Positions 4,497 to 46,260 of a DNA stretch of 64,000 nt are shown here, piece by piece. This DNA comes from Ralstonia pickettii DTP0602 (lineage in GTDB: Bacteria; Pseudomonadota; Gammaproteobacteria; Burkholderiales; Burkholderiaceae), in the NCBI GenBank assembly GCA_000471925.1, contig CP006668.1, positions 744,001 through 808,000 on the forward strand, written 5' to 3'. Numbering within the stretch: position 1 is the first letter of the stretch; each line of letters opens with the position of its first letter. The position numbers and the translations under genes were made by a program. The notes beneath the pieces are model-generated. The model had not been told where the DNA came from. It was given only the letters and a program-made list of their open reading frames with translations, and did not search any database.

Positions 4497-4838
4497 GGCT
4501 TGGAATCCGTTGCCGGGTCCGGCGTGCCGCTGTCGGGCCTGGCGGGGGAGGGGCCGTCGATCGCCTCACTGTAGCGCATCGGCCGCGACTGGCGCGGGTG
4601 ATGCCGGGGGCGCGTGGCCAAGGCGGCGCACTGCGCAAAAATGCCGGCACGCGCGCGTCGCTGCCATGCCACCCCGTTCGTCGCTTCGGACGATGCGTGT
4701 GCAGGCCCGATGCACGAAATTCGAACCCACTCCGGCACAGGCGTAATTTCTCCTGGCACATGCCGGCAACATCGAAACCGCGGGGCCGCACGCATCCGGC
4801 GCGGCCCGGCCAGTGACAACAGACAAAGGACAGACGGC
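4497..4838. other. Divergent intergenic region, MscS-type gene / SDR operon
   Basis: About 340 bases. It contains the 16-bp dyad at 4678-4693 and presumably both divergent promoters. In-frame extension of the SDR gene upstream to 4614 is possible but has no protein support, because the family starts at the glycine-rich motif near residue 12. Nothing else was recognised. Confidence 0.55.
4678..4693. promoter_or_regulatory. 16-bp dyad operator, copy 1 of 5
   Basis: TCGTCGCTTCGGACGA: arms TCGTCG and (G)GACGA around CTTC, with one base off perfect symmetry. It lies about 145 bases before the SDR start. The same sequence, nearly base for base, occurs at 38225, 38305, 44670 and 46245, each time before acyl-CoA metabolism genes. 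Repetition at functionally related promoters makes it a likely operator of one regulator. Confidence 0.7.
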
Positions 4839-5621
4839 ATGGAACTCAATGCATCGGTATCGGCAGTGGTGACGGGCGGGGCCTCGGGCCTGGGCGCGGC
4901 AACGGCCCGCGCGCTGGCGGCGCACGGCGTGCGCGTGGCGCTGTTCGACCTCAACGTTGAAAAGGGCGAAGCGCTGGCGCGCGAGCTCGGTGGTGTGTTC
5001 TGCCAGGTCAACGTCACCTCCGAAGCCGAAGTCGAAGCCGGGTTTGCCAGGGCGCGTGCCGCGATCGGCCAGGAACGCATCCTGGTCAACTGCGCCGGCA
5101 CTGGCAACGCCATCAAGACCGCTTCGCGTTCCAAGGAAGCGCCGGACCAGATCAAGCACTTCCCGACCGATGCCTTCGAACGCATCATCCAGATCAACCT
5201 GATCGGCACCTTCCGCTGCATCGCGCGCTCGGCCGCGGGCATGCTGACGCTTGACAGCGCCGACGGCGAGCGCGGCGTGATCATCAACACCGCGTCGGTG
5301 GCGGCGCAGGACGGCCAGATGGGGCAGGCCGCGTATTCGGCATCGAAGGCCGGCGTGGTCGGCATGACGCTGCCGATCGCGCGCGACCTCGCGGGCGAGG
5401 GCATCCGCGTCAATACCATCCTGCCGGGCATCTTCAATACGCCGCTGCTGCAGGGCGCCGCCGAGAACGTCAAGGCAGCGCTGGCCGCATCGGTGCCGTT
5501 CCCCAAGCGACTGGGGCAGCCGGAGGAGTTCGCTTCGCTGGCCGTGGAGATGTGCCGCAACGGCTATTTCAATGGCGAGTCGGTGCGCCTGGACGGCGCC
5601 ATCCGCATGGCGCCGCGCTGA
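4839..5621 (+). CDS. Short-chain dehydrogenase, 3-hydroxyacyl-CoA dehydrogenase type 2-like
   Basis: 260 residues, the usual SDR length. NAD-binding glycine motif TGGASGLG at 12-19, acidic D37 after the second strand (NAD preference), and an intact catalytic set S153, Y166 and K170 (YSASK). An insertion around residues 92-108 and the ending GESVRLDGAIRMAPR are typical of the HSD17B10-like 3-hydroxyacyl-CoA dehydrogenases. It probably oxidises a 3-hydroxyacyl-CoA to the 3-oxo form. The ATG at 4839 was chosen over the longer frame because AAAGGA lies just upstream. It is followed after 80 bases by a CoA ligase, and the TCGTCG dyad upstream links it to the acyl-CoA genes at 36-47.5 kb. Confidence 0.9.
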   Translation: MELNASVSAVVTGGASGLGAATARALAAHGVRVALFDLNVEKGEALARELGGVFCQVNVTSEAEVEAGFARARAAIGQERILVNCAGTGNAIKTASRSKEAPDQIKHFPTDAFERIIQINLIGTFRCIARSAAGMLTLDSADGERGVIINTASVAAQDGQMGQAAYSASKAGVVGMTLPIARDLAGEGIRVNTILPGIFNTPLLQGAAENVKAALAASVPFPKRLGQPEEFASLAVEMCRNGYFNGESVRLDGAIRMAPR

Positions 5622-5701
5622 GGCCGGCAACGGCGCCAGTTGATCGGCGCGGCCGGCCACCATCGAGCCGGCCCGCCCCCGCAACCATCACGGAGACGCG
5701 G

Positions 5702-7285
5702 ATGGAATTCAGCTACCTGGCGACGCTGCCCGCTGCAGTCCGCCATTTTGCCCGGCTGCGGCCCGATGCCGCGGCGTATTCGTTCGAAGGCCGGCTGACC
5801 ACCTATGCCGGGTTCGAGAGCAATACCGACCGCGTGGCGCAGGCGTTGCTGGCCGAGGAGGTCGGCGTGGGCGACCGCATCGCCTACATCGGCAAGAACA
5901 GCGATCACTACTTCGAACTGCTGCTGGGCGCGGGCAAGTGCGGCGCGGTGATGACGCCGGTCAGCTGGCGGCTGGCGCCGCCGGAGGTGAAGTTCATCGT
6001 CGGGCATTGCGATGCGGTGGTGCTCTTCGTCGGGCCGGAATCCGCGGCCTTGGTGACGCGCCTGCTGCCGGCGCTGCCCATGGTGCGCAAGGTGATCGCC
6101 ATGGAACCCTGCGCGGAGCTGGCCGAACGCCCCTGCTACACCGCCTGGCGCGATGCGCAGCCCGCCACGCCACCGGCGCACCATCCGGCGGCGCACGACG
6201 TCGTGCTGCAGCTCTATACGTCCGGCACCACCGGCCGGCCCAAGGGCGCGATGCTCACGCACCGCAACCTGACCATTGGCACTGAAGTCAGCGAACGCGA
6301 GAGCATTCCGTGGTCGCACTGGACCGCGGACGACATCTCGCTGGTGGCGATGCCGGTGGCGCATATCGGCGGCTCCGGCTGGGGGCTGCGCAACCTGCTG
6401 TCCGGCGCCAAGGGCGTGGTGGCGCGCGAATTTGACCCGCGCGCGGTGCTCGACTTCATCGAGCAGGAACGCATCAGCAAGCTGTTCATGGTGCCGGCCG
6501 CGATGCAGATCGTGCTGCGCGATCCACGCGCGCGGCAGGTGGACTACTCGCGCCTGAAGTACCTGCTGTACGGCGCCGCGCCGATTCCCGCGGCGCTGCT
6601 GCGCGAGGGCATAGAGGTGTTTCGCTGCGGCTTCGTGCAGCAGTACGGCATGACCGAGACCACCGGCACCATCGTGGCGCTGCCGCCCGAGGACCACACC
6701 ACCGAGGAGGTGCCGCGCATGCGGGCTGCCGGCAAGCCGCTGCCGGGTGTCGAACTCAAGGTGGTGGACTACGAGGGGCGCCAGCTGGCGCCGGGCGAAG
6801 TCGGCGAAGTGGTGGTGCGCGCGCAGCACAACATGGCCGGCTACTGGAAGCAGCCCGAAGAGACCGCGCGTGCCATCGACGCCGAAGGCTGGCTGCGCAC
6901 CGGCGACGCCGGCTACATGGATGCCGAGGGCTACCTGTACATCCACGACCGCGTCAAGGACATGATCATCAGCGGCGGCGAGAACGTCTATCCGGCCGAG
7001 GTCGAGAGCGCGATCTACGGCCACCCGCAGGTGGCGGACGTGGCGGTGATCGGCGTGCCCGACGAGAAGTGGGGCGAGGCGGTCAAGGCCATCGTCGTGC
7101 TCAAGCCCGGACTGGAAGCCGACCGCGACGGCATCATCGCGTGGACGCGGCAACGGCTGGCGGGATTCAAGGTGCCCAAGAGTATCGACTTCGTCGATGC
7201 GCTGCCGCGCAATCCGTCGGGCAAGCTGCTGCGGCGCAAGCTGCGCGAGCCGTTCTGGGAAGGGATGAACCGGCAGGTGAACTGA
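5702..7285 (+). CDS. AMP-forming acid--CoA ligase
   Basis: 527 residues, ANL superfamily. The phosphate-binding loop is visible as YTSGTTGRPKG near residue 176, the adenine motif as YGMTET, the hinge region as GWLRTGDAGYMD and the C-terminal catalytic lysine as PRNPSGKLLRRKL. The enzyme activates a carboxylic acid with ATP and CoA in the cytoplasm; the acid is not identifiable from motifs. ATG 5702 is preceded by GGAGACGCGG (Shine-Dalgarno GGAG). It shares the operon with the SDR upstream and ends before a strong terminator. Together they could initiate and continue degradation of one acid. Confidence 0.93.
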   Translation: MEFSYLATLPAAVRHFARLRPDAAAYSFEGRLTTYAGFESNTDRVAQALLAEEVGVGDRIAYIGKNSDHYFELLLGAGKCGAVMTPVSWRLAPPEVKFIVGHCDAVVLFVGPESAALVTRLLPALPMVRKVIAMEPCAELAERPCYTAWRDAQPATPPAHHPAAHDVVLQLYTSGTTGRPKGAMLTHRNLTIGTEVSERESIPWSHWTADDISLVAMPVAHIGGSGWGLRNLLSGAKGVVAREFDPRAVLDFIEQERISKLFMVPAAMQIVLRDPRARQVDYSRLKYLLYGAAPIPAALLREGIEVFRCGFVQQYGMTETTGTIVALPPEDHTTEEVPRMRAAGKPLPGVELKVVDYEGRQLAPGEVGEVVVRAQHNMAGYWKQPEETARAIDAEGWLRTGDAGYMDAEGYLYIHDRVKDMIISGGENVYPAEVESAIYGHPQVADVAVIGVPDEKWGEAVKAIVVLKPGLEADRDGIIAWTRQRLAGFKVPKSIDFVDALPRNPSGKLLRRKLREPFWEGMNRQVN

Positions 7286-7299
7286 GCCAGTACGCCCAC

Positions 7300-7333
7300 A
7301 GCAAAAGCCCGCCATAGTTGGCGGGCTTTTGCT
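7300..7333. terminator. Bidirectional intrinsic terminator
   Basis: Perfect 14-bp inverted repeat AGCAAAAGCCCGCC / GGCGGGCTTTTGCT around a 6-base loop. The T-rich arm makes it work in both directions, which suits its position between the convergent ligase gene and Bug-receptor gene. Confidence 0.9.
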
Positions 7334-7402
7334 TTGCCGGTTACCCCAGCCGCACACGGTTTGCTGCCGCGAAGCGGCGCAAGCCGAAGCCGGTGCGCTG
7401 CC

Positions 7403-8395
7403 TCAGTCGGCCTGGATGCCGAACTCCTTGACGATCTTGGTATAGCGCGTGGTATCGGCGGCAATCAGCTTCGACAGCGTTGCCGGCTCGCCGCCCGCGG
7501 GCGTCACCGCGATGGTCGCCATGCGCGACACCACGTCGGGCATCTTCAGGATCTCGTTGACGTGGGTGTTGAGCAGGCGCACCACGTCAGCCGGCATGTT
7601 CTTGGGTCCCAGCAATGCCTGCCACGCGCCGATCTCCACATCCTTGTAGCCGAGCTCTGCCAGCGTCGGCACGTTGGGCGCGAACGGCGAGCGCTTCTGG
7701 TCGGCCACCGCCAGCGGCACCAGGCTGCCGTTGCCGACGTACTGCGCGACCGCGCCGTAGGTGACGTAGGTCACCGGCACCTGGCCGCCGATTACGTCGA
7801 CGATGGCAGGGGCGAGGCCGCGGTAGGGCACCTGGCTGATCTTGATGCCGGCGGACTTGTTGAACAGCTCGCCCATGATGTGCATCGGCGAGCCGTTGCC
7901 CGGCGTGGCATAGGTTTCCACCTTGCCGGCCTTGGCGCGGGCCACCAGGTCGCTCATCTTGGTGATGCCGGTGCCCTTGTTGACCACCACGAACAGCGAC
8001 TGCGTGCCGATCTGCGCGACCGGCGTGAAGTCGTGCTGCACGTCGTAGCTGGCGCCGGTGCCGGCCTTGAGCACCAGCGGCGCGATGGCGACGGTGTTGG
8101 GTGCCAGCAGCAGCGTGTAGCCGTCCGGGTTGGCACGGGCCACGTAGGCGCTGCCGATGGTGCCGGCGGCGCCGGTGCGGTTTTCCACTACCACCGACTG
8201 CTTCAGGCGCGGGGCGAGCTTCTCCGCGAACAGGCGGGCCAGGACGTCGACATCGCCGCCGGCCGGATAGGCGACGACGATGGTGATGGGCTTGTTCGGG
8301 TATGCGCCCTGGGCCAGGGCAGTGCCGGTGGCGGTGGCGACCAGCGCGGTCGCGGCGGCCAGCGTGGCGAGTACTTTGCGGCGTGCAGACTTCAT
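7403..8395 (-). CDS. Bug/TctC-family periplasmic solute-binding protein
   Basis: 330 residues with a clear signal peptide (MKSARRK, hydrophobic core, cleavage after ALA). Family marks are PNKPITIVVAYPAGG after the signal, VVENRTGAAG near residue 70, and the VPTLAELGYKD stretch. Bug proteins bind carboxylates in the periplasm, usually for tripartite tricarboxylate transporters. No TctA or TctB gene is present in the window, so the membrane partner is elsewhere or the protein acts as a sensor. Start 8395 follows a GAGGT site. It is downstream of the porin in the same direction (98-base gap) and is about half identical by eye to the Bug protein at 28.6 kb. Confidence 0.92.
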   Translation of the reverse strand: MKSARRKVLATLAAATALVATATGTALAQGAYPNKPITIVVAYPAGGDVDVLARLFAEKLAPRLKQSVVVENRTGAAGTIGSAYVARANPDGYTLLLAPNTVAIAPLVLKAGTGASYDVQHDFTPVAQIGTQSLFVVVNKGTGITKMSDLVARAKAGKVETYATPGNGSPMHIMGELFNKSAGIKISQVPYRGLAPAIVDVIGGQVPVTYVTYGAVAQYVGNGSLVPLAVADQKRSPFAPNVPTLAELGYKDVEIGAWQALLGPKNMPADVVRLLNTHVNEILKMPDVVSRMATIAVTPAGGEPATLSKLIAADTTRYTKIVKEFGIQAD

Positions 8396-8493
8396 GATGT
8401 TCAGACCTCGGGAAAACTGGGCACCCGGCAGGGCCGGGGGCCGCATGGCTGGGGAGAGCCCGGCGCCTGCGCGGCACCGGGCGACCGCCGGAC

Positions 8494-9588
8494 TCAGAAA
8501 ATGTGCTTGATGCCGACCATCGAGCCCCACTGGTTCTCGCCCGGACGCGGGTTCGAACCGGGCGAGCCGCCGCTGACCGACATCGCCAGCTGGCCGCCGT
8601 TGTTGATAAAGCCGGCGGTCGCATACACCGAGGTGCGCTTGCTGAAGCTGTACATCGCGCGCAGCGTATACAGCATGGCCTGGTTGTCGCTGCCGTGGTA
8701 GTTCAGGAAGTAGACCTGGCCGGCAAGGTTGACCGCGGGCGTGATGTCGTAGGACACGCCGGCGTAGTACAGGTCGCTGATCGGCGTGGGGCTGCCTTCG
8801 TTGTCGCGGCGGATCCAGCCGGCGCCGAGCTTGGTGCGCTTCAGCAGCATGTAGCCGCCCACCGAGAGGCGGTCGTCGGTCAGGCTGCTGTTGGTCAGGC
8901 CGCCGAACGCGCCAGGGCCGCCGCGCTGCGAGTCGTATGCCGCGGTCACGCCCCAGGTCTTGTTGTCATAGCCGATCATGGCCGACCACTCGCGGCACGC
9001 CTTCTTGTCGGCGGCGTTCTCGCCGGCGCAGTTCGTGCCGGAGGGGCTCGGGCCGGCGTTGACCGCATCGCGCCCGAAGCTGTAGGTGGCGCCGAGCACG
9101 AAGCCACTGAAGTTGGCCTTGTACGAGATCGCATTGTCGGCGCGCGTATTGGGCAGGTAGCTGTCGAGCGAGCCCGAGCCGTACACGTTGGGGCCGAGAA
9201 TATCGCTGTCCAGGAGAGCCCAGAACAGCATCGTGTACTGGCGGCCGAACGAAAGTTGCCCATATTGGCTGGTCAGCCCGACCAGCGCCTGGCGCCCGAA
9301 CAGGCGGCCGCCCTGGTTGGAGGTGCCCGAGTCCGGCGAGAAGCCCGACTCCAGCACGAAGATGCTCTTCAGTCCGCCGCCCAGGTCCTCGGTACCGCGG
9401 ATGCCCCAGCGCGAGGGCACGGTGGCGGTCAGGTTGGGCATGCGCACCAGTCCGTCGCCGTTGGCGCCGACATTGCTCACGTACTCGACACCCGTATCGA
9501 TGACCCCGTACAGGGTGACCGAGGACTGCGCCGAGGCCAGCAGGGGGAAAGCCGCGGCCAGGCCCGCGGCGATTCGTGCAAGTTTCAT
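8494..9588 (-). CDS. Gram-negative trimeric porin (OmpC-like, Porin_4)
   Basis: 364 residues: a signal peptide (MKLARIAAGLAAAFPLLASA), then the betaproteobacterial porin opening SSVTLYGVIDTGVEY, and the terminal strand ending in phenylalanine (GIKHIF) that is needed for outer-membrane assembly. The internal pattern RWGIRGTEDLGGGLK is typical of this family. It forms a general diffusion pore and, with the Bug receptor downstream, probably serves uptake of the cluster's substrate. An operator-like element 230-270 bases upstream resembles those of the catabolic operons. Confidence 0.95.
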   Translation of the reverse strand: MKLARIAAGLAAAFPLLASAQSSVTLYGVIDTGVEYVSNVGANGDGLVRMPNLTATVPSRWGIRGTEDLGGGLKSIFVLESGFSPDSGTSNQGGRLFGRQALVGLTSQYGQLSFGRQYTMLFWALLDSDILGPNVYGSGSLDSYLPNTRADNAISYKANFSGFVLGATYSFGRDAVNAGPSPSGTNCAGENAADKKACREWSAMIGYDNKTWGVTAAYDSQRGGPGAFGGLTNSSLTDDRLSVGGYMLLKRTKLGAGWIRRDNEGSPTPISDLYYAGVSYDITPAVNLAGQVYFLNYHGSDNQAMLYTLRAMYSFSKRTSVYATAGFINNGGQLAMSVSGGSPGSNPRPGENQWGSMVGIKHIF

Positions 9589-10195
9589 CTACCAGTTTCC
9601 TTCCAGTTTTCCGTCTTGTAATCGTCTTGTGGTCCGGGCCGCTTCGATGGCGGCCGCGCTTCAGGGCAGGCTTGTGGTGGGCAGGTTCTTCTCCTCGTTA
9701 TGGGTCTGCGCGGGCAGGCGGGCCAGGGCGATGCAGTCAGGGCAGCCATGTCCCGTTGGCGGGGCTTTGATGCAGCGGCCCATGGGAACCGGTGAAAAAT
9801 GCTGCTTCAGCCTCTTGTATGTTTTATATATGGAACGTCAAACAACCTAAGAAACGTTGATGAAAATATAGCCGCGACTTTCCTTAAACTGTGAGGAGGG
9901 TTATCCCTAGTGCGGTCGCGCGACGACGGCATTGGCCGGCTGGTTCTGCACCCGGCGAGTGCGACGGGTGAGCACTGGCAGTGCAGGGAGCGGCATGCGT
10001 GGCCGCGTCCGCCGCTTGGCCGGGTCAGCTTGAAATCCGCATTAACAAAGGCATTGCGCCGGATGACAGGGTCCGGCGCTGCGAGGCGCGCGCGAACCGG
10101 CACATGCACCATGCCGAAGCAGTCCATGACAGAGGATTTCGACACTATCGTTAACCCTGATCCCACTTCGCCAGGCCGACGCCTATGCTTCAAAG
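9589..10195. other. Divergent intergenic region, porin / alpha-beta hydrolase
   Basis: About 600 bases without a credible gene. Its left half carries the porin promoter candidate (TATATT -10 on the minus strand at 9865-9870) and the operator at 9821-9855. Two small overlapping ORFs between 9807 and 10227 have no recognisable family, no good ribosome site and arginine-rich, shadow-like composition. Confidence 0.6.
9821..9855 (-). promoter_or_regulatory. IclR-type tandem operator before the porin operon (imperfect)
   Basis: Read on the minus strand: GTTTCTTAGGTTGTT (9855-9841), a 4-base gap, then GTTCCATATATAAAAC (9836-9821). The 16-mer is nearly the same as those at 10215, 11270 and 28504. 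The 15-mer keeps the GTT start but lacks the AAC end. The element begins about 9 bases after a TATATT -10, as in the other copies. The porin start is about 230 bases further on, a long leader that lowers confidence. Confidence 0.5.
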
Positions 10196-10230
10196 GTTTT
10201 ATTTGCAAACCTAGGTTTTATATATGAAAC
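10196..10230 (+). promoter_or_regulatory. IclR-type tandem operator, overlaps hydrolase start codon
   Basis: GTTTTATTTGCAAAC (10196-10210), a 4-base gap, and GTTTTATATATGAAAC (10215-10230). Offset between the two sites is 19 bases, identical to the copies at 11251 and 28485. A TATGCT -10 candidate lies just upstream (10184-10189). The second site contains the ATG of the hydrolase (10224). Confidence 0.65.
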
Positions 10231-11114: not shown

Positions 11115-11250
11115 TCCTGACCCAATAGCGGCGGTGCCCCGCATCGCCGCCATCGGCGCGCACGTTGCGCCACCCGTCCCACATCGCTGCGCATTCCGCG
11201 GGTTAACCCCAGTCAATTTTTAAGGCGACGTTGTCTATAGTCGTACCTGT

Positions 11251-11285
11251 GTTCAATATCTAAACCAGTGTTTCATTAGTAAAAC
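11251..11285 (+). promoter_or_regulatory. IclR-type tandem operator before the Rieske operon
   Basis: GTTCAATATCTAAAC (11251-11265), 4-base gap, GTTTCATTAGTAAAAC (11270-11285). A TATAGT -10 candidate is at 11236-11241. Aligned with the copy at 28485-28519, the two elements share the TGTGTTC opening, the AAC, the GTTTC and the TAAAAC end with identical spacing. The geometry places the operator at or just after the transcription start. Confidence 0.7.
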
Positions 11286-11364
11286 ATGACGGACGCAAAG
11301 CAAGGTGCATCCGGACGACGTTGGAACACGGTCCCCCAAGCTGCAAGACATGGAGCAAAGCGCA

Positions 11365-11670: not shown

Positions 11671-11717
11671 GCCCCGGCCCGCCCGCCCTCCACGAAACGC
11701 GTCGTAGCGAGAACAAC

Positions 11718-13554: not shown

Positions 13555-13586
13555 TCACCGATCCACGGAAAACACAAGGAATCCAA

Positions 13587-15010: not shown

Positions 15011-15015
15011 GGACA

Positions 15016-35705: not shown

Positions 35706-36941
35706 TCAGAGCCCGAGCACGAGCTTGGCGATGATGTTGCGCTGGATCTCGTTGGACCCGCCGTAGATCGACGCCTTGCGATAGTTGAAATAGCGCGGCG
35801 CCAGCACCGCGGCATAGTCCGGCCCGACGCGCGGCGCGGCCTCGCGGCCTTGCAGCTCGGCCCAGGTGTCCCGCACGAACGGTAGCGCCGCCGGGCCGGC
35901 GGCTTCCACCGCCAGTTCACTGGCCGCCTGCAGCGTCTCCGTGCCCGTGAGCTTCAGCATGCTCGAAGCCGCGCCGACCGAACTGCCCGATTCCAAGCCC
36001 GAGAACACGCGCAACTCCACCGCTTCGAGCGCCGCGGCGCGCACGTGCAGCGCCGCCAGCTTGCGGCGGAAGGCGGGGTCGTCCAGCAACCGGCCACCGT
36101 CGTCGGCGGGCTGGTCGGCGGCAATGTCGGCAATCTTGGCCAGCTGCTTGCGCAGCATCGGGCTGTAGGTGCCGCCGCGCTCGAACTCCAGCAGGTACTT
36201 GGCACAGGTCCAGCCCTTGCCTTCTTCGCCGATGCGGTTTGTCACCGGCACGCGCACGTTCTCGAAGAAGACCTGGTTCACTTCCTGCTGGCCGGCCATG
36301 GGGCCGTCCAGCGTCGGCAGCGGCGACACCGTGATGCCGGGCGTATGCATGTCGAGCAGCAGGAAGGAGATGCCTTCCTGGCGCTTCGATTCGCGGCTGG
36401 TGCGCACCAGGCAGAACATCCAGTCGGCCCACTGCGCGTGCGTGGTCCAGATCTTGGCGCCGTTCAGGACGTAGTACTCGCCGTCGCCATCGGTGACGCG
36501 CTCCGCGCGCATCTGCAGCGAGGCCAGGTCCGAGCCTGAGTTGGGCTCGGAATACCCCTGGCACCACCAGACGTCGGAAGCCAGGATCGGCGGCAGGAAG
36601 CGCGCCTTCTGCTCGGGCGTGCCGTACTTCATGATCACCGGCGCCACCATCTTCAGGCCCATCGGCGATACCGGCGGGCAGCCGGCGGCGGCCAGCTCGG
36701 ACTGGAAGATAAAGCGCTGGGTCGCGTTCCAGCCCGGGCCGCCGTATTCCTCGGGCCAGTTGGGCGCGGCCCAGCCGCGCGCATGCAGCGCCTTTTGCCA
36801 GCGCACCTGGCCGGCCTTGTCGAGGTAGCCGTTCTTGGACTGCGCCATCATGGCGCGCAGGTCGGCGTCATGGGCCTGGGCGATCCAGGCGCGTACGTCT
36901 TCACGGAACTGCTGGTCTTGCGGGGAGAAATCGAGATGCAT
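35706..36941 (-). CDS. Acyl-CoA dehydrogenase (large, FadE-like)
   Basis: 411 residues. FAD and substrate motifs: WCQGYSEPNSGSDLASL, KIWTTHAQ, and the C-terminal YGGSNEIQRNIIAKLVLGL. The usual catalytic glutamate of short-chain enzymes was not located with certainty. It introduces the 2,3 double bond into an acyl-CoA, passing electrons to ETF. It is the second gene of the minus-strand pair with the other dehydrogenase (48-base gap). Such tandem pairs are typical of branched, cyclic or steroid-like acyl-CoA degradation, where two subunits form one heteromer. Confidence 0.9.
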   Translation of the reverse strand: MHLDFSPQDQQFREDVRAWIAQAHDADLRAMMAQSKNGYLDKAGQVRWQKALHARGWAAPNWPEEYGGPGWNATQRFIFQSELAAAGCPPVSPMGLKMVAPVIMKYGTPEQKARFLPPILASDVWWCQGYSEPNSGSDLASLQMRAERVTDGDGEYYVLNGAKIWTTHAQWADWMFCLVRTSRESKRQEGISFLLLDMHTPGITVSPLPTLDGPMAGQQEVNQVFFENVRVPVTNRIGEEGKGWTCAKYLLEFERGGTYSPMLRKQLAKIADIAADQPADDGGRLLDDPAFRRKLAALHVRAAALEAVELRVFSGLESGSSVGAASSMLKLTGTETLQAASELAVEAAGPAALPFVRDTWAELQGREAAPRVGPDYAAVLAPRYFNYRKASIYGGSNEIQRNIIAKLVLGL

Positions 36942-36989
36942 CGACGGGCCTCGCTGGGATAGTCGTCTGGGTTGGCGGGGAGGCGGGCC

Positions 36990-38144
36990 TTATGCCGCGG
37001 CAGGATAGAGCAGGTCGGCGTAGCGGCGCAGGTGGTGTTCGGCCGAACCCATCTGCAGGTCGATCGCCGTGACGCGCTTGAAGTAGTGGCCTACCGCCAG
37101 TTCTTCGGTGACGCCCATGCCGCCGTGGATCTGCACCGCGGCCTGGCCGACGAAGGCACCCGCCTGGCCTGCCTGGATCTTGGCCGCGCACGCAGCCTGC
37201 GCACGGACCTCCGGCGCACTCGTCGCACTCGCCGCCTGCATCGCCGCCACCTGGGTCAGCCCCACTGACTGCTCGAGCTGCATATACATGTCGGCCATGC
37301 GGTGCTGCAGCACCTGGAAGGTACCGATCGGGACGCCGAACTGCTTGCGCTGGCGCGCGTAGTCGATGGTGTCGGCCAGCATGCGCGCCATCGCGCCGTT
37401 GGCTTCGGCGGCGAGCGCGACCATGGCTTCGTCGCACAAGCGCTCGATCAATGCGAACGCTTCACCTTCGGCGCCGATGCGCTGGCTGGCTGGAACCTGC
37501 ACGCCGTCGAGCAAGACCTCGGCGGCGCGCTGGCCGTCGAAGGTTGGGTACTCGCGCAGACCCACGCCCGGCGTATCGCGCGCGATCCAGAACAGGCTGA
37601 TGCCGTCGCGGTCACGGCGCGTGCCGGCGGTGCGGGCGCTGACCACCAGGTGCGAGGCGAACGGCGCGCCGACCACCGCATGCTTTCGTCCGCTTAGCTT
37701 GTAGCCGTCGCCCTGGCGCGTGGCAGTCGCCTGCACGTCGTGGCGGCAGTAACGGCTGGCGGGTTCAGCGTGGGCCCAGGCCGCGGTCGCTTCGCCGCCG
37801 ATGATGGCCGGCACCCACTGCGCCGCCAGTTCGGGGTTGCCGTGCACCAGCGCGCCGCCGCCCAGCACCACCGTGCCCAGGTAAGGCTCCAGCACCAGGT
37901 GGCGGCCGAACTGCTCCATCACGATCATGTGCTCGGCCGCGCCGCCGCCCAGGCCGCCCAGCGTCTCGGGGAAGGCCGCGCCGAGGATGCCGAGTTCGCG
38001 TGCGAACGCGCGCCAGCAATCCGGGCGCCAGCCCGCGGCGGATTGCGTGGCAGCGCGACGCGCTTCGAAATCATAGTGATCGGCCAGGTAACGCGCGATC
38101 GTGTCGCGCAGCATCGACTGTTCTTCGCTGAACTGGAAATCCAC
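36990..38144 (-). CDS. Acyl-CoA dehydrogenase (second subunit or enzyme)
   Basis: 384 residues from the GTG at 38142-38144, preceded by AAGGAG with 5-base spacing. It shows the typical N-terminal helix (FSEEQSMLRDTIARYLAD), a central barrel and the C-terminal IHGGMGVTEELAVGHYFKR. The long open frame continuing upstream to 40049 is antisense to the ligase gene and is not coding. The FAD contact RKQFGVPIGTFQ is clear. Partnered with the downstream dehydrogenase, perhaps as an alpha2-beta2 heteromer; this is inference from pairing. Confidence 0.88.
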   Translation of the reverse strand: MDFQFSEEQSMLRDTIARYLADHYDFEARRAATQSAAGWRPDCWRAFARELGILGAAFPETLGGLGGGAAEHMIVMEQFGRHLVLEPYLGTVVLGGGALVHGNPELAAQWVPAIIGGEATAAWAHAEPASRYCRHDVQATATRQGDGYKLSGRKHAVVGAPFASHLVVSARTAGTRRDRDGISLFWIARDTPGVGLREYPTFDGQRAAEVLLDGVQVPASQRIGAEGEAFALIERLCDEAMVALAAEANGAMARMLADTIDYARQRKQFGVPIGTFQVLQHRMADMYMQLEQSVGLTQVAAMQAASATSAPEVRAQAACAAKIQAGQAGAFVGQAAVQIHGGMGVTEELAVGHYFKRVTAIDLQMGSAEHHLRRYADLLYPAAA

Positions 38145-38224
38145 CGTGGCTCCTTCGGATTGGGGATGAGACGTGACTGCGGTCGTCTGCCGGGCATGAT
38201 CCGGCCGAGCCGCCGGGTGGCGCA

Positions 38225-38240
38225 TCGTCGCATCGGACGA
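38225..38240. promoter_or_regulatory. 16-bp dyad operator, copy 2 of 5
   Basis: TCGTCGCATCGGACGA, 81 bases upstream of the dehydrogenase GTG (minus strand). Core differs from the other copies by CATC instead of CTTC. Its centre is exactly 80 bases from that of copy 3, which faces the opposite gene. Confidence 0.72.
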
Positions 38241-38304
38241 AGCCGCGCGGCCGGGGCAAAGTCCCGTTTTATGCGGCGCTGCGGCAAACCTTGGCCGCGG
38301 CGCT

Positions 38305-38320
38305 TCGTCGCTTCCGACGA
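38305..38320. promoter_or_regulatory. 16-bp dyad operator, copy 3 of 5
   Basis: TCGTCGCTTCCGACGA, perfect 6-bp arms. It ends 80 bases before the ligase ATG at 38400, mirroring copy 2, so each divergent gene has its own site at the same distance. Confidence 0.75.
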
Positions 38321-38399
38321 TGGTTGAACCGCCGGGCCTTCCCAGAATGCGGGATTGGCAATCGCCTATACCGTGACACCTGTCGAGGAGCTCAACGTC

Positions 38400-39947
38400 A
38401 TGCATCCGCACATCCACGCGCAGCGCACGCCAGACAAGCCGGCCGTCATCATGGGCAGCAGCGGCGCAGTCGTCACCTACCGCGAGCTCGACGCGCGCTC
38501 CAACCAGGTCGCCCAGCTGTTCCGCGCGCGTGGGCTGCGGCCGGGCGACCGCGTCGCCTTCATGGTGGAGAACCATCCGCGGCTGTTCGAGCTGTGCTGG
38601 GGTGCGCAACGCAGCGGCATCGTCTTCATCTGCCTGAGCACGCGGCTGAACGTGGCCGATGCCGCCTACATCGTCAACGACAGTGGCGCGAAGATGCTGG
38701 TGACCACGCAGGCGCAGGCCGAAACCGCCGCGGCGCTGGCCGGGCAGACGCCTAACCTGATCGGCAGGCTGATGCTGGACGGCACCGTGCCAGGCTACGA
38801 GGCCTATGAAACGGTGTTGCGCCGCTGCCCGGCCACGCGCATCGAAGACGAGGCCACCGGCGGCGACATGCTCTATTCCTCCGGCACCACCGGCCGGCCC
38901 AAGGGCGTGTTCGCGGCGCCGGCAAGCCCGCGCATCGACGATCCCACGCCGCTGACGGCGCTGTGCCAGCGGCTCTACGGCTTCGATGCCGACACGCGCT
39001 ACCTGTCGCCCGCGCCGCTGTATCACGCCGCGCCGCTGCGCTACAACATGACCGTGCAGGCGCTGGGCGGCACCTCGGTGGTGATGGAGCATTTCGACGC
39101 GGAGCAGTTCCTGCAGCTGGTGCAGCAGCACCGCATCACGCATACGCAGCTGGTGCCGACGATGTTCTCGCGCATGCTCAAGCTGTCCGAGGCGCAGCGG
39201 CTCGCGTACGACGTATCGTCGCTGCGCGTGGCGATCCACGCGGCCGCGCCGTGCCCGGTGCAGGTCAAGGAAGCGATGATCGACTGGTGGGGCCCGGTGA
39301 TCTGGGAGTACTACGCCGGCACCGAAGGCAACGGCGTGACCGTGGTCAGCACCCAGGAGTGGCAGCAGCGCAAGGGCACGGCGGGGCGGGCGATGATCGG
39401 CAAGCTGTGTATCTGCGGCCCGGACGGCGAGCTGATGCCGCCGGGCGAGCCAGGCACGATCTACTTTGCCGAGGGCCGCGCCTTCGCCTACCACAACGAC
39501 GACGCCAAGACCGCGGAGTCGCGCCACCCGCAGCATCCGGACTGGAGCACCATCGGCGATATCGGCTACGTGGACGAGGAGGGCTACCTGTATCTGACCG
39601 ACCGCAAGGCCAACATGATCATCTCCGGCGGCGTCAACATCTATCCGCAGGAGGCCGAGAACCTGCTGATGACGCACCCCAAGGTGATGGACGTGGCCGT
39701 GATCGGCGTGCCCAACGAAGACTTCGGCGAAGAGGTCAAGGCCGTGGTGCAGCCCATCGACATGGCGCAGGCCGGGCCGGAACTGGCCGCCGAGCTGATC
39801 GCCTTCTGCCGCGCTAGTTTGTCCTCGATCAAGTGCCCACGCTCGGTGGACTTCGCCGCCGAGCTGCCGCGCCTGCCGACCGGCAAGCTGCTCAAGCGGC
39901 TGCTGCGCGACCGCTACTGGGCCGGGCACGCCAACAAGCTGGTGTGA
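38400..39947 (+). CDS. AMP-forming acid--CoA ligase
   Basis: 515 residues. Phosphate loop YSSGTTGRPKG near residue 160, YYAGTEGNG for the A5 region, IGDIGYVDEEGYLYLTDR and the C-terminal PRLPTGKLLKR lysine. It activates a carboxylic acid as CoA thioester for the following dehydrogenases. ATG 38400 follows GAGGAG; the longer frame starting TTG 38355 was rejected. It is divergent from the dehydrogenase operon and not closely similar to the ligase at 5702. Confidence 0.93.
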   Translation: MHPHIHAQRTPDKPAVIMGSSGAVVTYRELDARSNQVAQLFRARGLRPGDRVAFMVENHPRLFELCWGAQRSGIVFICLSTRLNVADAAYIVNDSGAKMLVTTQAQAETAAALAGQTPNLIGRLMLDGTVPGYEAYETVLRRCPATRIEDEATGGDMLYSSGTTGRPKGVFAAPASPRIDDPTPLTALCQRLYGFDADTRYLSPAPLYHAAPLRYNMTVQALGGTSVVMEHFDAEQFLQLVQQHRITHTQLVPTMFSRMLKLSEAQRLAYDVSSLRVAIHAAAPCPVQVKEAMIDWWGPVIWEYYAGTEGNGVTVVSTQEWQQRKGTAGRAMIGKLCICGPDGELMPPGEPGTIYFAEGRAFAYHNDDAKTAESRHPQHPDWSTIGDIGYVDEEGYLYLTDRKANMIISGGVNIYPQEAENLLMTHPKVMDVAVIGVPNEDFGEEVKAVVQPIDMAQAGPELAAELIAFCRASLSSIKCPRSVDFAAELPRLPTGKLLKRLLRDRYWAGHANKLV

Positions 39948-40171
39948 CACCAGTGCCGGCGGCGCGGTGCTGCCAGCGCCGGCCGCCGGATCTCCCTTTG
40001 CTGCGTCGCCCGTACTCTGCCTGAAACGCGCCGGCCATCGCACCGCCACTGTTTACGCCATAATTCCGTGTTCCATCCCAGTCACGCCCGCCCCGGCCTG
40101 CACCGCAGAGAAGGGCAGGCGTGTTGCTCCGCCCGCGGCGGCGGCCATGCGCGCAAGACAACAACACGCCA

Positions 40172-42946
40172 ATGGCAAGTATCGAGGAGACAGGGCGGCG
40201 CACGCCGTCCCCCACCGGCGCCGGCGCCGCATCGCTGGCGGCCAAGCTGCGTCCGCCGCTGCTGACCCCGTTCCAGGTCGAGCGCGCGGGGATCTGTGAC
40301 GCCGTGTGCGCCGCGGGCTTCGTCAAGCTGGTGCTGGTGCGCGCGCCGGCGGGCTTCGGCAAGACCACCGCCATGCTCCAGTGCCGCGCGCGGCTGGAGG
40401 CCGCGGGCGGGCGTACCGCCTGGCTTACGCTGGACCGTTCGGACAACGACGCCACGCGCTTTCTCGGCTCGGTCGAAGCCGCCATTGCGCAGGCGCTGGG
40501 CGGCAGCGTGGCGGGCCGGTCCGCGCGCCCCGCGCTGGCGCAGGATGCCGGCGAACAGGCGCTGGCGCTGATCGACCGCCTGGCCAGCTACAGCGGCGCC
40601 TTCACGCTGTTCCTTGACGATTTCGAAGCGATCCAGAATGCCGCCGTGACCGGCCTGGTCTGGCAGCTGGTGGAAAGCCTGCCGCCGGGCTGCCGCGTGG
40701 TGATCGGCACGCGCTGGGTTCCTGAATCCGGGCTGGGCCGGCTGCGCGCGCGCGGCGAGCTGCTTGAGATCGAGCCCGCGCAACTGCGTTTCAGCGCCAG
40801 CGAAACTGAATCCTTCCTGCGCCAGGCGCGCGGGCTCAAGCTGGAACCCGCCGCGATCAGCGCGCTGCATCGCCGCACCGAAGGCTGGGCCACGGCCTTG
40901 TGGCTGGCGTCGGTGGCGCTGGAGCGGCGCAGCCAGCCGGAGGGTTTTATCGCCGGCTTTTCCGGCTCGAACGCGGCCATTGCCGATTACCTGGTCGAAG
41001 ACGTCTTCCTGCACCTGCCCGAGGCGGTGCGCGACTTCCTGCTGCGCACCTCGATCCTGGACCAGCTGTGCGGGCCGCTGTGCGATGCCGTGTGCCAGCC
41101 CTCGGGCGGCGCCGGCAGCAGCGACGACATCCTTGCGTGGCTGGAGCGCGCCAACCTGTTCCTGCTGCCGCTGGAGAGCGAGCGCTATGGCGAACGCGGC
41201 ACCGGCGCGGCGCCGGAGCAGTGGTACCGCTATCACAGCCTGTTTTCCGGTTTCCTGCGCGGCCAGCTCGCGCAGGCCATGCCCGACGTGGTACCGCAAC
41301 TGCATCTTGCCGCGTCGCGCTGGTACGAGTCGCAGGGCCGCCCGGTGCCCGCCATCGAGCATGCGCTCGCGGCCGGCGCGCTGTGGCACGCACTGCAGCT
41401 GCTCGACGGCGCCGCCGACGAGCTGTTGGCGCAGGGCCGCATGCGGCTGCTGACGCGCTGGCTGGAAGCGGTGCCGGCGGACGAACTGGCGCGCTGGCCC
41501 AAGCTTCAGATTGCCCATGTGTGGGCGGTCTCCTTCACGCGCGGACCGGCCGATGCCATCGCGCTGCTGCAGGCGATCCCGACCGAGGGCGCGGCCGGCG
41601 ACCTGCTCGCGCATATCCGCGCGCTGCGGCACATGCTGCTGAATATGATGGACCGCTTCGACGACGCGCGCGCCTTTGCCCGCAACGAGCTGCCGCCATT
41701 GCCGATGGGCTACGCCTTCCCCGATGCGATCCTGGCCACCTCGATGGCGCGCCTGGCCGCGGTCAGCGGCGACTATCCCGAGGCGCGGCGGCTGCTGCAG
41801 GTCGCGCGCCAGGCGGTGCGCGGCTCGGACAGCAACTTCAACAAGATTTTCTCGGAGTCGGTCGAAGGGCTGATCGACCTGCGCCAGGGCCGGTTGCAGC
41901 AGGCGCTGGCGCGCTTTCGCATCGCCGCGCGCACGATGCTGCCGAACCGCTTCGGCCCGACCAATGGCAACGCCATGGCCGGCATCCTGCTGGCCGAAGG
42001 CCTGTACGAGAGCGGCGACACCGAGCGCGCCGGCCGCTTGCTCAACGTCTACCTGCCGCTGTCGCGCGACCTTGGCCTGCCGGACCAGATCATCACCGGC
42101 CACGCGGTGCTGGCCCGCATCGCCTTCGAACGCGGCGAAACCGACCAGGCCCATGAGTGGCTGGCACAACTGGAGGCACTGGGGCACCACCGCGGCCTGA
42201 CCCGGCTGGTGATGGCGGCGATGCTGGAGCGCGCGCGGCTGGCGCTGCGCCAGGGCAATGTCCACGCCGCGCAGGAAGCAATCGAACGCGCCGCGGATCC
42301 GGCGCTGTGGCGCACCCGCCCGGGGGTCAGCTCCTTTGCCCAGGATGTCGAGGACATCGCCGTCGGGCGGCTGCGGCTGGACGTGCATGCGCGGCCCGGC
42401 GCGCAGGTGCGCGAGGCGATCGAGCGCGAACTGGCTGCTGCCACAGTCAATCAGCTGATGCGCCGCGCGCTCAAGCTGCGCATCCTGCTGGCGCAGGCGT
42501 GCCAGCGCATCGGCGACGGCGCGCATGCGCTGGTGGTGATGGGCGAGGCGCTGCGCTTCGGTGCCGCCGAGGGCTTTGTCCGGATCTTTGCCGACGAGGG
42601 CGAAGACGTGTGCCGGCTGGTGGCCGATGCGTGTGCGCGCCAGTCAGCCAGCCTGTCCGCCGCCTACGTGGCAAAGCTGCTGCAGGCCTGCGGCCAGCGC
42701 AGCGCTGACGCGCAGACCGGCAAGCCGGGCCGGCCCGCGCCGGCAGCGCTGGTGGAGCCGCTGACGCCCAAGGAACTGAAGGTGCTGCAGCTTCTTGCCG
42801 AAGGTTTCTCCAACGTGGCGATGGCGGAACGGCTGTTCGTTTCAGAGACCACGGTGCGTACGCACTTGCGCAATATCAGCGCCAAGCTGCACGCCAGCAA
42901 CCGCACGCAGGCGGTGGCCATCGCGCGGCAGCTGGGCTTGCTCTGA
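40172..42946 (+). CDS. Large ATP-dependent LuxR-type regulator (MalT/AlkS-like)
   Basis: 924 residues. Walker A is APAGFGKTT at 58-66, the Walker B-like FLDDFEA about residue 145, then a winged-helix/ARM region, a TPR-like helical section (residues 400-850), and a LuxR/GerE DNA-binding domain at the end (LTPKELKVLQLLAEGFSNVAMAERLFVSETTVRTHLRN). This is the STAND/MalT architecture: an effector and ATP trigger oligomerisation and DNA binding. It stands in the middle of the acyl-CoA genes whose promoters bear the TCGTCG dyad, making it the prime candidate activator. ATG 40172 was preferred by family length; ATG 40121 is an alternative. Confidence 0.92.
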   Translation: MASIEETGRRTPSPTGAGAASLAAKLRPPLLTPFQVERAGICDAVCAAGFVKLVLVRAPAGFGKTTAMLQCRARLEAAGGRTAWLTLDRSDNDATRFLGSVEAAIAQALGGSVAGRSARPALAQDAGEQALALIDRLASYSGAFTLFLDDFEAIQNAAVTGLVWQLVESLPPGCRVVIGTRWVPESGLGRLRARGELLEIEPAQLRFSASETESFLRQARGLKLEPAAISALHRRTEGWATALWLASVALERRSQPEGFIAGFSGSNAAIADYLVEDVFLHLPEAVRDFLLRTSILDQLCGPLCDAVCQPSGGAGSSDDILAWLERANLFLLPLESERYGERGTGAAPEQWYRYHSLFSGFLRGQLAQAMPDVVPQLHLAASRWYESQGRPVPAIEHALAAGALWHALQLLDGAADELLAQGRMRLLTRWLEAVPADELARWPKLQIAHVWAVSFTRGPADAIALLQAIPTEGAAGDLLAHIRALRHMLLNMMDRFDDARAFARNELPPLPMGYAFPDAILATSMARLAAVSGDYPEARRLLQVARQAVRGSDSNFNKIFSESVEGLIDLRQGRLQQALARFRIAARTMLPNRFGPTNGNAMAGILLAEGLYESGDTERAGRLLNVYLPLSRDLGLPDQIITGHAVLARIAFERGETDQAHEWLAQLEALGHHRGLTRLVMAAMLERARLALRQGNVHAAQEAIERAADPALWRTRPGVSSFAQDVEDIAVGRLRLDVHARPGAQVREAIERELAAATVNQLMRRALKLRILLAQACQRIGDGAHALVVMGEALRFGAAEGFVRIFADEGEDVCRLVADACARQSASLSAAYVAKLLQACGQRSADAQTGKPGRPAPAALVEPLTPKELKVLQLLAEGFSNVAMAERLFVSETTVRTHLRNISAKLHASNRTQAVAIARQLGLL

Positions 42947-42955
42947 GCTCGCGGC

Positions 42956-43627
42956 TCAGATGCCGATGAACTCGGCGAACTCTTCCAGCGGCGCACGTGC
43001 GGCACGCAACTGGTTGGCGGGAGCTTCGGGATCCTCGTAGCCGATCGCCATGCCGGTGAACAGCATCCGCTCGGCCGGCAGCGACAGGAACTCGCCGATG
43101 GTCTGCGGGTACATCGCCCAGCATTCCTGCGCGCAACTGTCCAGTCCTTCCTCGCGCAGCAGCAGCATCACTGACTGCAGGTACATGCCCAGGTCCGACC
43201 ATTGCGGCGGGCCCATGCGGCGGTCCACGGTGCAGAACAGTGCCAGCGGCGCGCCGAAGAAGGTGAAGTTATTGGCGAACTGCGCCAGCCGCCGCGGCTT
43301 GTCCTCGCGCGGGATGCCGAGGTAGTGGTACAGCGCCTCGCCCACCTGGAAGCGGCGGTCGCGGTAGGGCGAGACCAGTTCGCGCGGGTAGACGTCGTAC
43401 TCGCGTTCTTCGCCAGCGGGTGCCTGTGCGATGCGCTCGCGCATGATGCCCCGCAGCCCCTCCAGCGCCTCACCGCCGATGACGTGGATATGCCAGGGTT
43501 GCAGGTTGCCGCCCGAGGGCGCGCGCGCGGCGGCGTCGAGCACGCGCCGGATGGTACCCGGCGGCACGGGTTTGGGCAGGAAGCCGCGGACGGACTTGCG
43601 GCTGGCGACGGCTTGGCTGACTTTCAT
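42956..43627 (-). CDS. Nitroreductase-family FMN oxidoreductase
   Basis: 223 residues. FMN-binding SRKSVRGF and APSGGNLQPW at the N-terminus and the late GMAIGYEDPEAPANQLR are typical of NfsB/BluB-related reductases. It reduces nitro groups, quinones or enones using NAD(P)H. It lies 9 bases past the MalT-like gene (convergent) and 35 bases after the hydratase in the same direction, so its role may be in the same pathway. Confidence 0.9.
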   Translation of the reverse strand: MKVSQAVASRKSVRGFLPKPVPPGTIRRVLDAAARAPSGGNLQPWHIHVIGGEALEGLRGIMRERIAQAPAGEEREYDVYPRELVSPYRDRRFQVGEALYHYLGIPREDKPRRLAQFANNFTFFGAPLALFCTVDRRMGPPQWSDLGMYLQSVMLLLREEGLDSCAQECWAMYPQTIGEFLSLPAERMLFTGMAIGYEDPEAPANQLRAARAPLEEFAEFIGI

Positions 43628-43662
43628 GCGAACTCCGGAAGATTGTTGCGGGCAGGTGCGAC

Positions 43663-44538
43663 TCAGGCGAAGGGCGGTTCGCCGCGCCAGTCGAAGAAGT
43701 CCGGCAGGTCTTGCGACACCGTATCGGGGAAAGCGGCGGGACGTTTTTCAAGGAAGGCGCTGACGCCTTCCTTCACATCGGCCGAGCGTCCGCGTGACTG
43801 GATCGCGCGGCTGTCGAGCTTGTGCGCTTCCATCGGGTGGCTGGCACCGGCCATGCGCCAGATCAGCTGGCGCGAGATCGCCACCGACACCGGCGCGGCG
43901 TTGTCCGCGATTTCACGGGCGATTGCCTGCGCGGCCGGCAGCAGGTCCTCCGGCGCGTGCAGCGAGCGCACCAGGCCGCGCTCGAGCGCTTCCTGCGCGG
44001 AGAAGACGCGGCCCGTGTAGCACCATTCCAGCGCGGTCGAAATGCCGACCACGCGCGACAGGAACCACGACGACGCCGCTTCCGGCGTGATGCCGCGGCG
44101 GGCAAAGACAAAGCCGAACTTGGCGTCGGTCGAGGCCAGCCGGATATCCATCGGCAGCTGCATGGTCACCCCTACGCCGACCGCGGCGCCATTGACCGCG
44201 GCGATCACCGGCTTGAGGCTGCGGAAGATGCGCAGCGACACGCGCCCGCCGCCGTCGCGATGGGCGGTGTCGGGACTGGCGCCGTAGCGCTTCTCGAAAT
44301 CGAAGGTCGAGCCGCCGGCCGAGAGGTCGGCGCCGGCGCAGAAGGCACGGCCCGAACCGGTGACGATCACCGCGCGCACGTTGTCGTCGGCATCGGTGGC
44401 ATCGAACGCCGCGATCAGGTCCTGCATCATCTGCGCGGTGAAGGCGTTGAGCTGGTCGGGGCGGTGCAACGTGATGGTGGCGACACCGTCTTCGACGGCG
44501 TAGCGCAGGGTTTCGAACGTAGGCGTGGCTTGCGTCAT
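43663..44538 (-). CDS. Enoyl-CoA hydratase/isomerase family protein
   Basis: 291 residues, crotonase fold. Oxyanion-hole region GRAFCAGADLSAGG and NGAAVGVGVTMQLPMDIRLAS; a glutamate in the second catalytic position (GITPEAASSWFL). It would hydrate the enoyl-CoA made by the dehydrogenases. Start at 44538 with GGAG upstream; a long in-frame extension to 45159 is antisense to the NMO gene and was rejected. It is divergent from the NMO gene around the dyad at 44670. Confidence 0.93.
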   Translation of the reverse strand: MTQATPTFETLRYAVEDGVATITLHRPDQLNAFTAQMMQDLIAAFDATDADDNVRAVIVTGSGRAFCAGADLSAGGSTFDFEKRYGASPDTAHRDGGGRVSLRIFRSLKPVIAAVNGAAVGVGVTMQLPMDIRLASTDAKFGFVFARRGITPEAASSWFLSRVVGISTALEWCYTGRVFSAQEALERGLVRSLHAPEDLLPAAQAIAREIADNAAPVSVAISRQLIWRMAGASHPMEAHKLDSRAIQSRGRSADVKEGVSAFLEKRPAAFPDTVSQDLPDFFDWRGEPPFA

Positions 44539-44669
44539 GGCGGCTCCGGCAAAGGGAAGGGGGGCGAGGATGCTGCGGCCGGCGAGGAGCGACACATCGG
44601 CAGGGGCCAGGCTGTGCCTTGCGCCGGCAAGGGGCCAGCCAACACTAGTGCAGAATGCGCCGCCCGCAA

Positions 44670-44685
44670 TCGTCGCTTCCGACGA
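44670..44685. promoter_or_regulatory. 16-bp dyad operator, copy 4 of 5
   Basis: TCGTCGCTTCCGACGA, identical to the copies at 38305 and 46245. It lies 132 bases before the hydratase (minus) and 94 bases before the NMO gene (plus), in a divergent region, so it could serve both. Confidence 0.75.
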
Positions 44686-44769
44686 GGCCCGGCAGCCGCG
44701 GCTGGCCGTAGACTGGGCCCGATCGCCGGCGGGCCAGCCCTCGCGCGCACCGGCCGGCGCAGACAGTAA

Positions 44770-45750
<981 letters not shown>

Positions 45751-45754
45751 CGCC

Positions 45755-46228
45755 ATGGCCGAAGCCGGGATCGAGGCGGCCATGACCCAGGCCCTGGCCG
45801 AGCCGGCCGGGGTCGCTGGCGCAGGGGACCTGCCGGAGGGCTTTGTGCCCCTGCGCCGGATGAGCGGCTACATGGCCAATTTCGGCCAGCTCTACCTGCA
45901 TGCGGAGCGCCGCACGCTGGCGGTGCGGATCGACGAGAGCCACCTGAACAACCTCGGCATCCCGCACGGAGGCATGCTGGCGACACTGGCCGATACCGCC
46001 ATCGGCATGATGATGTCGCTGGAGACCGGCCGCTCCAAGAGCGCGGTCACGGTCAACCTGAGCCTGGACTACCTCGATTCCGCGCGCCTGGGCGACTGGG
46101 TCGAGGCGCGCGTGGAGTTCGACAAGCTGGGCTCGCGGCTGCGTTATGGCACCTGCCGGGTGGTCAGCGGCGAGCGTTGCCTGTTGCGTGCCACGGCCAT
46201 CTTCGCTGTTCTGGCGCCGCGCGGCTGA
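45755..46228 (+). CDS. PaaI-type hotdog thioesterase
   Basis: 157 residues. The hotdog motif is NNLGIPHGGMLATLADTAIG (HGG then D), the PaaI/YdiI pattern, with SAVTVNLSLDYLDSARLGDWVEA after it. It hydrolyses acyl-CoA esters and could release CoA from dead-end intermediates. ATG 45755 is chosen because it follows the NMO stop by 4 bases; an upstream in-frame ATG at 45701 lies inside the NMO gene. Confidence 0.88.
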   Translation: MAEAGIEAAMTQALAEPAGVAGAGDLPEGFVPLRRMSGYMANFGQLYLHAERRTLAVRIDESHLNNLGIPHGGMLATLADTAIGMMMSLETGRSKSAVTVNLSLDYLDSARLGDWVEARVEFDKLGSRLRYGTCRVVSGERCLLRATAIFAVLAPRG

Positions 46229-46244
46229 GCAGCCTGGCGGACTT

Positions 46245-46260
46245 CGTCGCTTCCGACGAC
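46245..46260. promoter_or_regulatory. 16-bp dyad operator, copy 5 of 5
   Basis: TCGTCGCTTCCGACGA, 114 bases before the thiolase ATG and just after the thioesterase stop. It shows that the thiolase gene has its own regulated promoter. Confidence 0.75.

Follow-up and report, generated by a model that had tools for sequence, protein, structure and literature searches.

The stretch of Ralstonia pickettii DTP0602 DNA analysed here (the window; 64,000 nucleotides, positions 744001-808000 of contig 2, CP006668.1) contains five nearly identical copies of a short inverted repeat, or dyad, all of which face genes for acyl-CoA metabolism. Very probably, to judge from the sequence, these dyads are the operators of the LAL-type (large ATP-binding, MalT-like LuxR-family) regulator encoded at 40172-42946, which would activate six promoters from a class II position. 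That the genes form a coherent regulon with the dyad as its operator is strongly supported, because the dyad is unique to this region genome-wide, is conserved at all orthologous promoters examined and stands at a fixed position relative to the promoter. Thus, the dyad-marked acyl-CoA regulon put forward in an earlier reading of the window from its letters alone (the sequence-only reading) is borne out. The sites, their conservation, the spacing of the -10 element and the co-occurrence with the LAL and its helix type come directly from the computations described below.

The pattern TCGTCG-N4-SGACGA matches five times in the window, at 4678, 38225, 38305, 44670 and 46244, where 0.03 matches are expected by chance (100 shuffles; largest count, 2). 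The sequence TCGTCGCTTCCGACGA is found exactly at three of the dyads, with TCGTCGCTTCGGACGA at 4678 and TCGTCGCATCGGACGA at 38225. The sequence-only reading had described five near-identical dyads, three of them exact, and a search of the window agrees with it except for the last start, which it gave as 46245. All five are intergenic, as it had also held, and its distances of 80-145 bases to the next gene were nearly right: the measured gaps between site and start codon run from 74 to 145 nucleotides (SDR, 145; acyl-CoA dehydrogenase, 74; ligase, 79; NMO, 93; hydratase, in the opposite direction, 131; thiolase, 114). Across the whole genome (three contigs, 8,125,850 bases), TCGTCGCNTCSGACGA has five matches, which are the window's five dyads, and its reversed control has none. 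In effect, five copies within 42 kb are found rather than the many genome-wide copies of a REP or other dispersed repeat, and neither many unrelated hits nor a REP-like distribution, which the earlier reading had named as outcomes that would speak against it, is observed.

A looser version of the dyad (TCGTCG-N4-CGACGA, one mismatch allowed) was rejected as a motif, having given 268 matches genome-wide against 232 for its control. As this loose dyad does not rise above its control, the full 16-mer, including its centre, matters. The family-wide pattern TCGTCNNWWNNGACGA occurs at six places in the genome and its reversed control at two; the sixth place, on contig 1, was rejected as an operator and falls inside a small coding frame, at its final codons.

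Conservation was followed in 60 Cupriavidus genomes. The motif is present in 37 of them and an orthologue of the LAL (71-100% identity) in 34, being full length in 32, cut by a contig end in G045 and fragmented in G042. At least two copies of the motif are found in each of the 34 genomes with the orthologue, while among the 26 without it, G058 has two copies, G015 and G017 have one each and 23 have none; in G058, AT-centred copies were sought and none was found. The ligase at 5702 (E ≤ 1e-150) occurs in exactly the 34 LAL-bearing genomes and in G017. The individual sites are similarly constant. In the 34 LAL-bearing genomes, the SDR site either equals TCGTCGCWTCSGACGA (26 genomes) or departs from it by a single mismatch (eight), and the six promoter directions carry TCGTC-N6-GACG[AC] in 195 of 195 covered instances (204 possible; G017 left out), with almost all variation among orthologous sites falling within the six central bases. 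The LAL gene and four genes that stand second in their operons (nitroreductase, second dehydrogenase, first ligase, thioesterase) behave differently: in each of their 164 upstream stretches of 300 bases, even the closest match has four or more mismatches. In the window, no site precedes the LAL gene.

The position of the dyads relative to promoters was evaluated by scoring -10-like hexamers along the DNA past each site, with circular shifts as the null. Across the genus, the best mean -10 position lies 22 or 23 nucleotides past the dyad in all six directions, and none of 20,000 shifts was as good (p = 5e-5). In the window, such a hexamer stands at 22-23 nucleotides on six dyad sides, all of which lead to a gene start 74-145 nucleotides away from the dyad; it is missing there on the remaining four (scores of -1.0 or lower). 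In the genus, TTGACA-like boxes sought with spacers of 16-18 score no better than chance (means of 1.3-3.1 matches, against 2.3 at random positions in loci of other genera), and in other genera, with a mean of 2.7, they score little above that random value. Counting from a -10 at 22-23 nucleotides and a typical spacing between -10 and the start of transcription, the dyad falls at about -50 to -35, with its centre near -42.5. In the window, transcription is accordingly predicted to start near 4728, 38189, 38355, 44721, 44635 and 46294, about 35 nucleotides past the sites. Class II LuxR-type activators sit near -42.5. Judged from the predicted -10 only, the dyads thus have the centre (-41.5 to -42.5) and the weak -35 of a class II operator. 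The lux box is a dyad centred near -42.5 as well, so that the position inferred here is the same, whereas the architecture of the regulator and the sequence TCGTC-N6-GACGA differ from those of LuxR and its box.

The gene between the ligase and the hydratase encodes a protein of 924 amino acids, in keeping with the size of about 900 amino acids typical of LALs. Its N-terminal Walker A motif, APAGFGKT, is invariant in eight aligned LALs, and it contains a MalT-like TPR domain (PF17874, 117 bits) and a C-terminal GerE helix-turn-helix domain (PF00196, 63.5 bits), with TTVRTHLRN as the recognition helix. Of all solved structures, MalT resembles it most closely (8bob, E 4.5e-42), and it shares with MalT of Escherichia coli the domain plan of ATPase, MalT-like TPR and GerE domain; nevertheless, it is not MalT proper, as it scores 342.1 bits against the NCBIfam MalT equivalog, whose cut-off is 537.

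The same operator accompanies LALs of other genera. A LAL-alignment scan of named genomes yielded 80 loci, around which all palindromes built from 1024 five-base arms and 13 spacers were ranked de novo; near-duplicate loci (for instance, L159/L170, L152/L168 and L156/L160) were counted separately here and in the -10 and helix counts. Near LALs of 36-50% identity, TCGTC-N6-GACGA ranks first, with 73 sites found where 3.5 are expected, in 32 of 47 loci. It falls to rank 47 around 29 more distant LALs (seven found, 1.65 expected) and to rank 1192 at 12 loci whose LALs have VK- or IK-type helices. The genera with sites include Noviherbaspirillum, Variovorax, Hydrogenophaga, Marinobacter, Steroidobacter, Bradyrhizobium, Pseudomonas and Zhongshania. 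On 145 sides of these 73 sites, -10-like hexamers peak at +22 (fraction 0.32) and +23 (0.17), with no other position above 0.07. Thirty genes behind such sites, chosen by hand and mostly with good -10 scores from 87 promoter-like sides with a frame, comprise 22 for acyl-CoA-type enzymes (four of them SDRs), four for transport and four that are other or unmatched. Thus, as far as its sequence can tell, the operator is common to a LAL clade in other genera and is not private to the regulon of the window, a conclusion that, like the two divergent promoters at 44670 described below, goes beyond the sequence-only reading.

The sites accompany LALs whose recognition helix reads [VI]RTH.R. With seven orthologues of the window's LAL left out, a site is present at 34 of 39 loci with a VRTH-type helix versus 6 of 42 others; L184 was classed as VRTH-type from its helix, VRTHRRN, though its LAL frame holds stops. 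In the LAL tree, sites occur in 41 of the 46 rows of one region. Because this helix rule had been read off the same data, the prediction was fixed before held-out loci were fetched. A class-level sample proved too sparse in LALs (13 of 274 genomes), and another family, that of G505, was used instead, from which 40 of 41 places were fetched (the exception, in G787, is truncated by a contig end). Four loci were copies of earlier ones and were dropped, leaving 36, among which L245 overlaps L247 and L246 overlaps L248. Sites were found at all 19 VRTH-type loci (49 sites in 377 kb) and at 4 of 17 others (four sites in 327 kb, all lacking a central AT pair), with the helices of L254 and L255, VKFHLRN and VKWYLKS, staying in the latter class. 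The -10 peak is also seen here: on 97 sides, the fraction is 0.19 at 22 and 0.24 at 23 nucleotides, and at most 0.06 elsewhere.

From these data we infer that the LAL binds the dyads and that it activates rather than represses, as well as what its ligand and the substrate of the pathway may be. For the substrate, the terpenoid, cyclic or branched acids suggested in the sequence-only reading are candidates. In the proposed mechanism, the LAL would bind ATP together with an inducer that is probably one of the pathway's acids or acyl-CoAs. The GerE domains would then dimerise on TCGTC-N6-GACGA, covering about -50 to -35 with the centre near -42.5, and the LAL would bring RNA polymerase to these promoters, which have no -35 box; this is class II activation. 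The five sites would serve six promoters (SDR-ligase, dehydrogenase pair, ligase, hydratase, NMO-thioesterase and thiolase), since one of them would work both ways: operator 4, at 44670, appears to serve two divergent promoters.

Several observations weigh against this picture. The -10 hexamers of the SDR promoters are weak matches, and a repressor covering -35 would occupy the same position as the dyad. The Cupriavidus promoters share common ancestry. When the presence of sites is mapped on the whole LAL tree, 11 changes are needed against 29.2 in shuffles, so the fit is imperfect; moreover, the VRTH/VK contrast follows the tree and, consequently, does not show that the residue causes specificity. 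Of the five VRTH-type loci that lack an exact site, L151, L155 and L176 have none even when one mismatch plus a -10 is accepted, and L183 has a GC-centred site only, while L167 has a good one-mismatch site. Finally, G015 has a promoter-like site, and the three LALs found in it (E ≤ 1e-60) have the helices VKSHLRK, VKWNLRN and VKTHVKH, none of VRTH type.

This last genome is what would be expected if an unlinked regulator that travels with the pathways bound the dyads and the LAL were a bystander. The loci in other genera, however, were found with the LAL as the anchor and site presence there tracks its helix type, which makes such a bystander role quite unlikely. The sequence-only reading had offered two candidate regulators, the MalT-like protein at 40172 and the LuxR-like protein at 549-1796. 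The former is favoured, given that all 34 genomes with its orthologue have at least two copies of the motif. The latter possesses a GerE domain and is encoded near the SDR site, but it is found (E ≤ 1e-40) in 52 of the 60 genus genomes, including 17 of the 23 that are motif-free, and it is very unlikely to be the regulator.

Repression by the LAL itself, which would occlude -35 until an inducer releases it, is compatible with a dyad that covers about -50 to -35. Yet these promoters have no -35 box and should therefore need an activator, and two catabolic regulators of the LuxR/MalT type, AlkS and TpdR, are reported to be activators (PMC8784404, PMC6099782); repression is thus considered unlikely. 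Although CpG-rich palindromes are common in this genome, an origin of the dyads as a REP-like repeat family or by chance in GC-rich DNA is refuted for practical purposes by the finding of just five matches in 8.1 Mb, every one of them intergenic in a single pathway, by the fixed -10 spacing and by the absence of any of 67 sites in other genera from the LAL coding region. Activation by the LAL remains the preferred explanation, and the features on which it is based are collected in Table 1.

Table 1. Candidate operators, predicted -10 hexamers and genes in the window.
Feature	Position	Strand	Basis or remark
Operator 1	4678..4693	+	Dyad match; upstream of SDR-ligase pair
Predicted -10 GAAATT	4716..4721	+	22 nt (nucleotides) past operator 1
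SDR (adh_short)	4839..5621	+	Domain searches
Acyl-CoA ligase (AMP-binding)	5702..7285	+	Domain searches
Acyl-CoA dehydrogenase, pimC-like, below NCBIfam cut-off	35706..36941	-	Domain search
Acyl-CoA dehydrogenase, pimD-like, below cut-off	36990..38150	-	Domain searches
Predicted -10 GATCAT	38196..38201	-	23 nt past operator 2
Operator 2	38225..38240	-	Dyad match, conservation; predicted for leftward dehydrogenase operon
Operator 3	38305..38320	+	Dyad match, conservation; predicted for rightward ligase
Predicted -10 CAGAAT	38343..38348	+	22 nt past operator 3
Acyl-CoA ligase, FadD4-like, below NCBIfam cut-off	38400..39947	+	Domain searches
LAL/MalT-like regulator	40172..42946	+	Walker A, TPR_MalT, GerE HTH (helix-turn-helix)
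Nitroreductase-family protein	42956..43627	-	Domain search, upstream scan; downstream gene without own site
Enoyl-CoA hydratase	43663..44538	-	Domain searches
Predicted -10 TAGTGT	44642..44647	-	22 nt past operator 4, leftward
Operator 4	44670..44685		Dyad match; predicted for both divergent promoters
Predicted -10 TAGACT	44709..44714	+	23 nt past operator 4, rightward
NMO/FabK-like flavoprotein	44779..45750	+	Domain searches
Hotdog thioesterase	45755..46228	+	Domain searches
Operator 5	46244..46259	+	Dyad match, conservation; upstream of thiolase
Predicted -10 AAGAAT	46282..46287	+	22 nt past operator 5
Thiolase	46374..47549	+	Domain search

Domain searches confirmed the beta-oxidation gene set that had been claimed for the dyad-marked genes. 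The two dehydrogenases resemble a pimeloyl-CoA dehydrogenase pair, with scores below the respective cut-offs (376 versus 623.85 and 373 versus 652.7 bits). In the window, the SDR-ligase pair is distant from the cluster, as the sequence-only reading had stated, but in seven relatives (G003, G004, G005, G006, G007, G016 and G040) it lies only 1.6-3.8 kb away; thus, relatives do not share one arrangement. For G004, no dehydrogenase pair was detected within the stretch examined. The roughly 28 kb between the pair and the cluster (7300-35700) hold other catabolic genes without a dyad; the ten proteins tested there include a Rieske oxygenase, a TPP enzyme, two IclR regulators, TauD, a molybdenum hydroxylase and an aldehyde dehydrogenase. 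Farther along contig 2, the stretch at 55687-60852 is free of predicted genes because it contains a complete ribosomal RNA operon (16S, two tRNAs, 23S and 5S).

Additional sites were observed in some relatives. A conserved TCGTCGCATCCGACGA with TAGCAT at +23 stands ahead of an SDR-like frame in G015, G024 and G042 (L014, L022 and L031), the frame in G015 beginning 86 nucleotides downstream of the site. An extra exact site with GATACT at +23 is found away from the cluster in G025 (L138) and G038 (L028), and the gene behind it, with a ligase-like start, may be a further member of the regulon. G017, which lacks the LAL orthologue, has instead a 45%-identical LAL, which is closely followed by an exact dyad copy; this copy precedes an operon for a CoA-transferase-like protein, an NMO, an SDR and a thiolase; the first of these proteins is read, from its sequence, as a CoA-transferase of the CaiB/racemase type. 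Four LAL paralogues of Cupriavidus (42-48% identity) differ in the exact-arm dyads at their loci, with three at L121, two at L122, one at L123 and none at L124. The two at L122 are identical (TCGTCAAAACTGACGA), have an unusual centre and belong to a second acyl-CoA cluster, which has a LAL of its own. Unlike in Cupriavidus, 13 of the 67 dyads in other genera (L144-L203) lie 60-400 nucleotides upstream of the LAL match, which suggests autoregulation or divergent control. In 398 genomes of the family, the pattern occurs in 154, outside the genus mostly as a few scattered matches (at most six per genome).

Neither this operator nor this regulon is reported in the literature searched, which consisted of titles and the beginnings of abstracts and included few subscription papers; the exact dyad 16-mers are absent from the text searched, where three matches, in rice papers, correspond to a 12-mer only. 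The closest known systems are AlkS, MalT, TpdR and, as noted above, LuxR with its box. AlkS of Pseudomonas putida GPo1 is likewise a LAL-type activator of a catabolic pathway, that of alkane genes, and its site is described as a 20-bp inverted repeat next to -35 (PMC8784404). AlkS controls hydroxylase genes and itself, whereas the LAL gene of the window has no site, and the two operators are likened by description only. MalT, in turn, binds decanucleotides in direct repeat (as cited in PMC6099782), whereas the present sites are mirror dyads with an N6 spacer (MalT boxes themselves were not searched for). In the same source, the actinobacterial TpdR of Rhodococcus jostii TMP1 is presented as an LAL activator of a catabolic operon; its proposed site is a 15-nucleotide direct repeat, in contrast to the mirror dyad found here (PMC6099782).

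LAL regulators have been called a poorly studied family (PMC3282765). It is probable that a proteobacterial LAL clade with a VRTHLRN-type helix uses one operator, WTCGTC-N6-GACGAW, at a fixed promoter position to bring about the pathway-specific activation of many different acyl-CoA pathways and their uptake systems. Since paralogues would share the arms and differ in the six central bases alone, regulons could be readable from sequence, and paralogues in one cell, such as those of G016, might be distinguished by the centre or might cross-talk. A rule that links helix type, operator and promoter position would allow the regulons of many uncharacterised LALs to be predicted and would link orphan acyl-CoA clusters with their pathways, among them the detached SDR-ligase pair, and the operator-promoter module could be a biosensor part.

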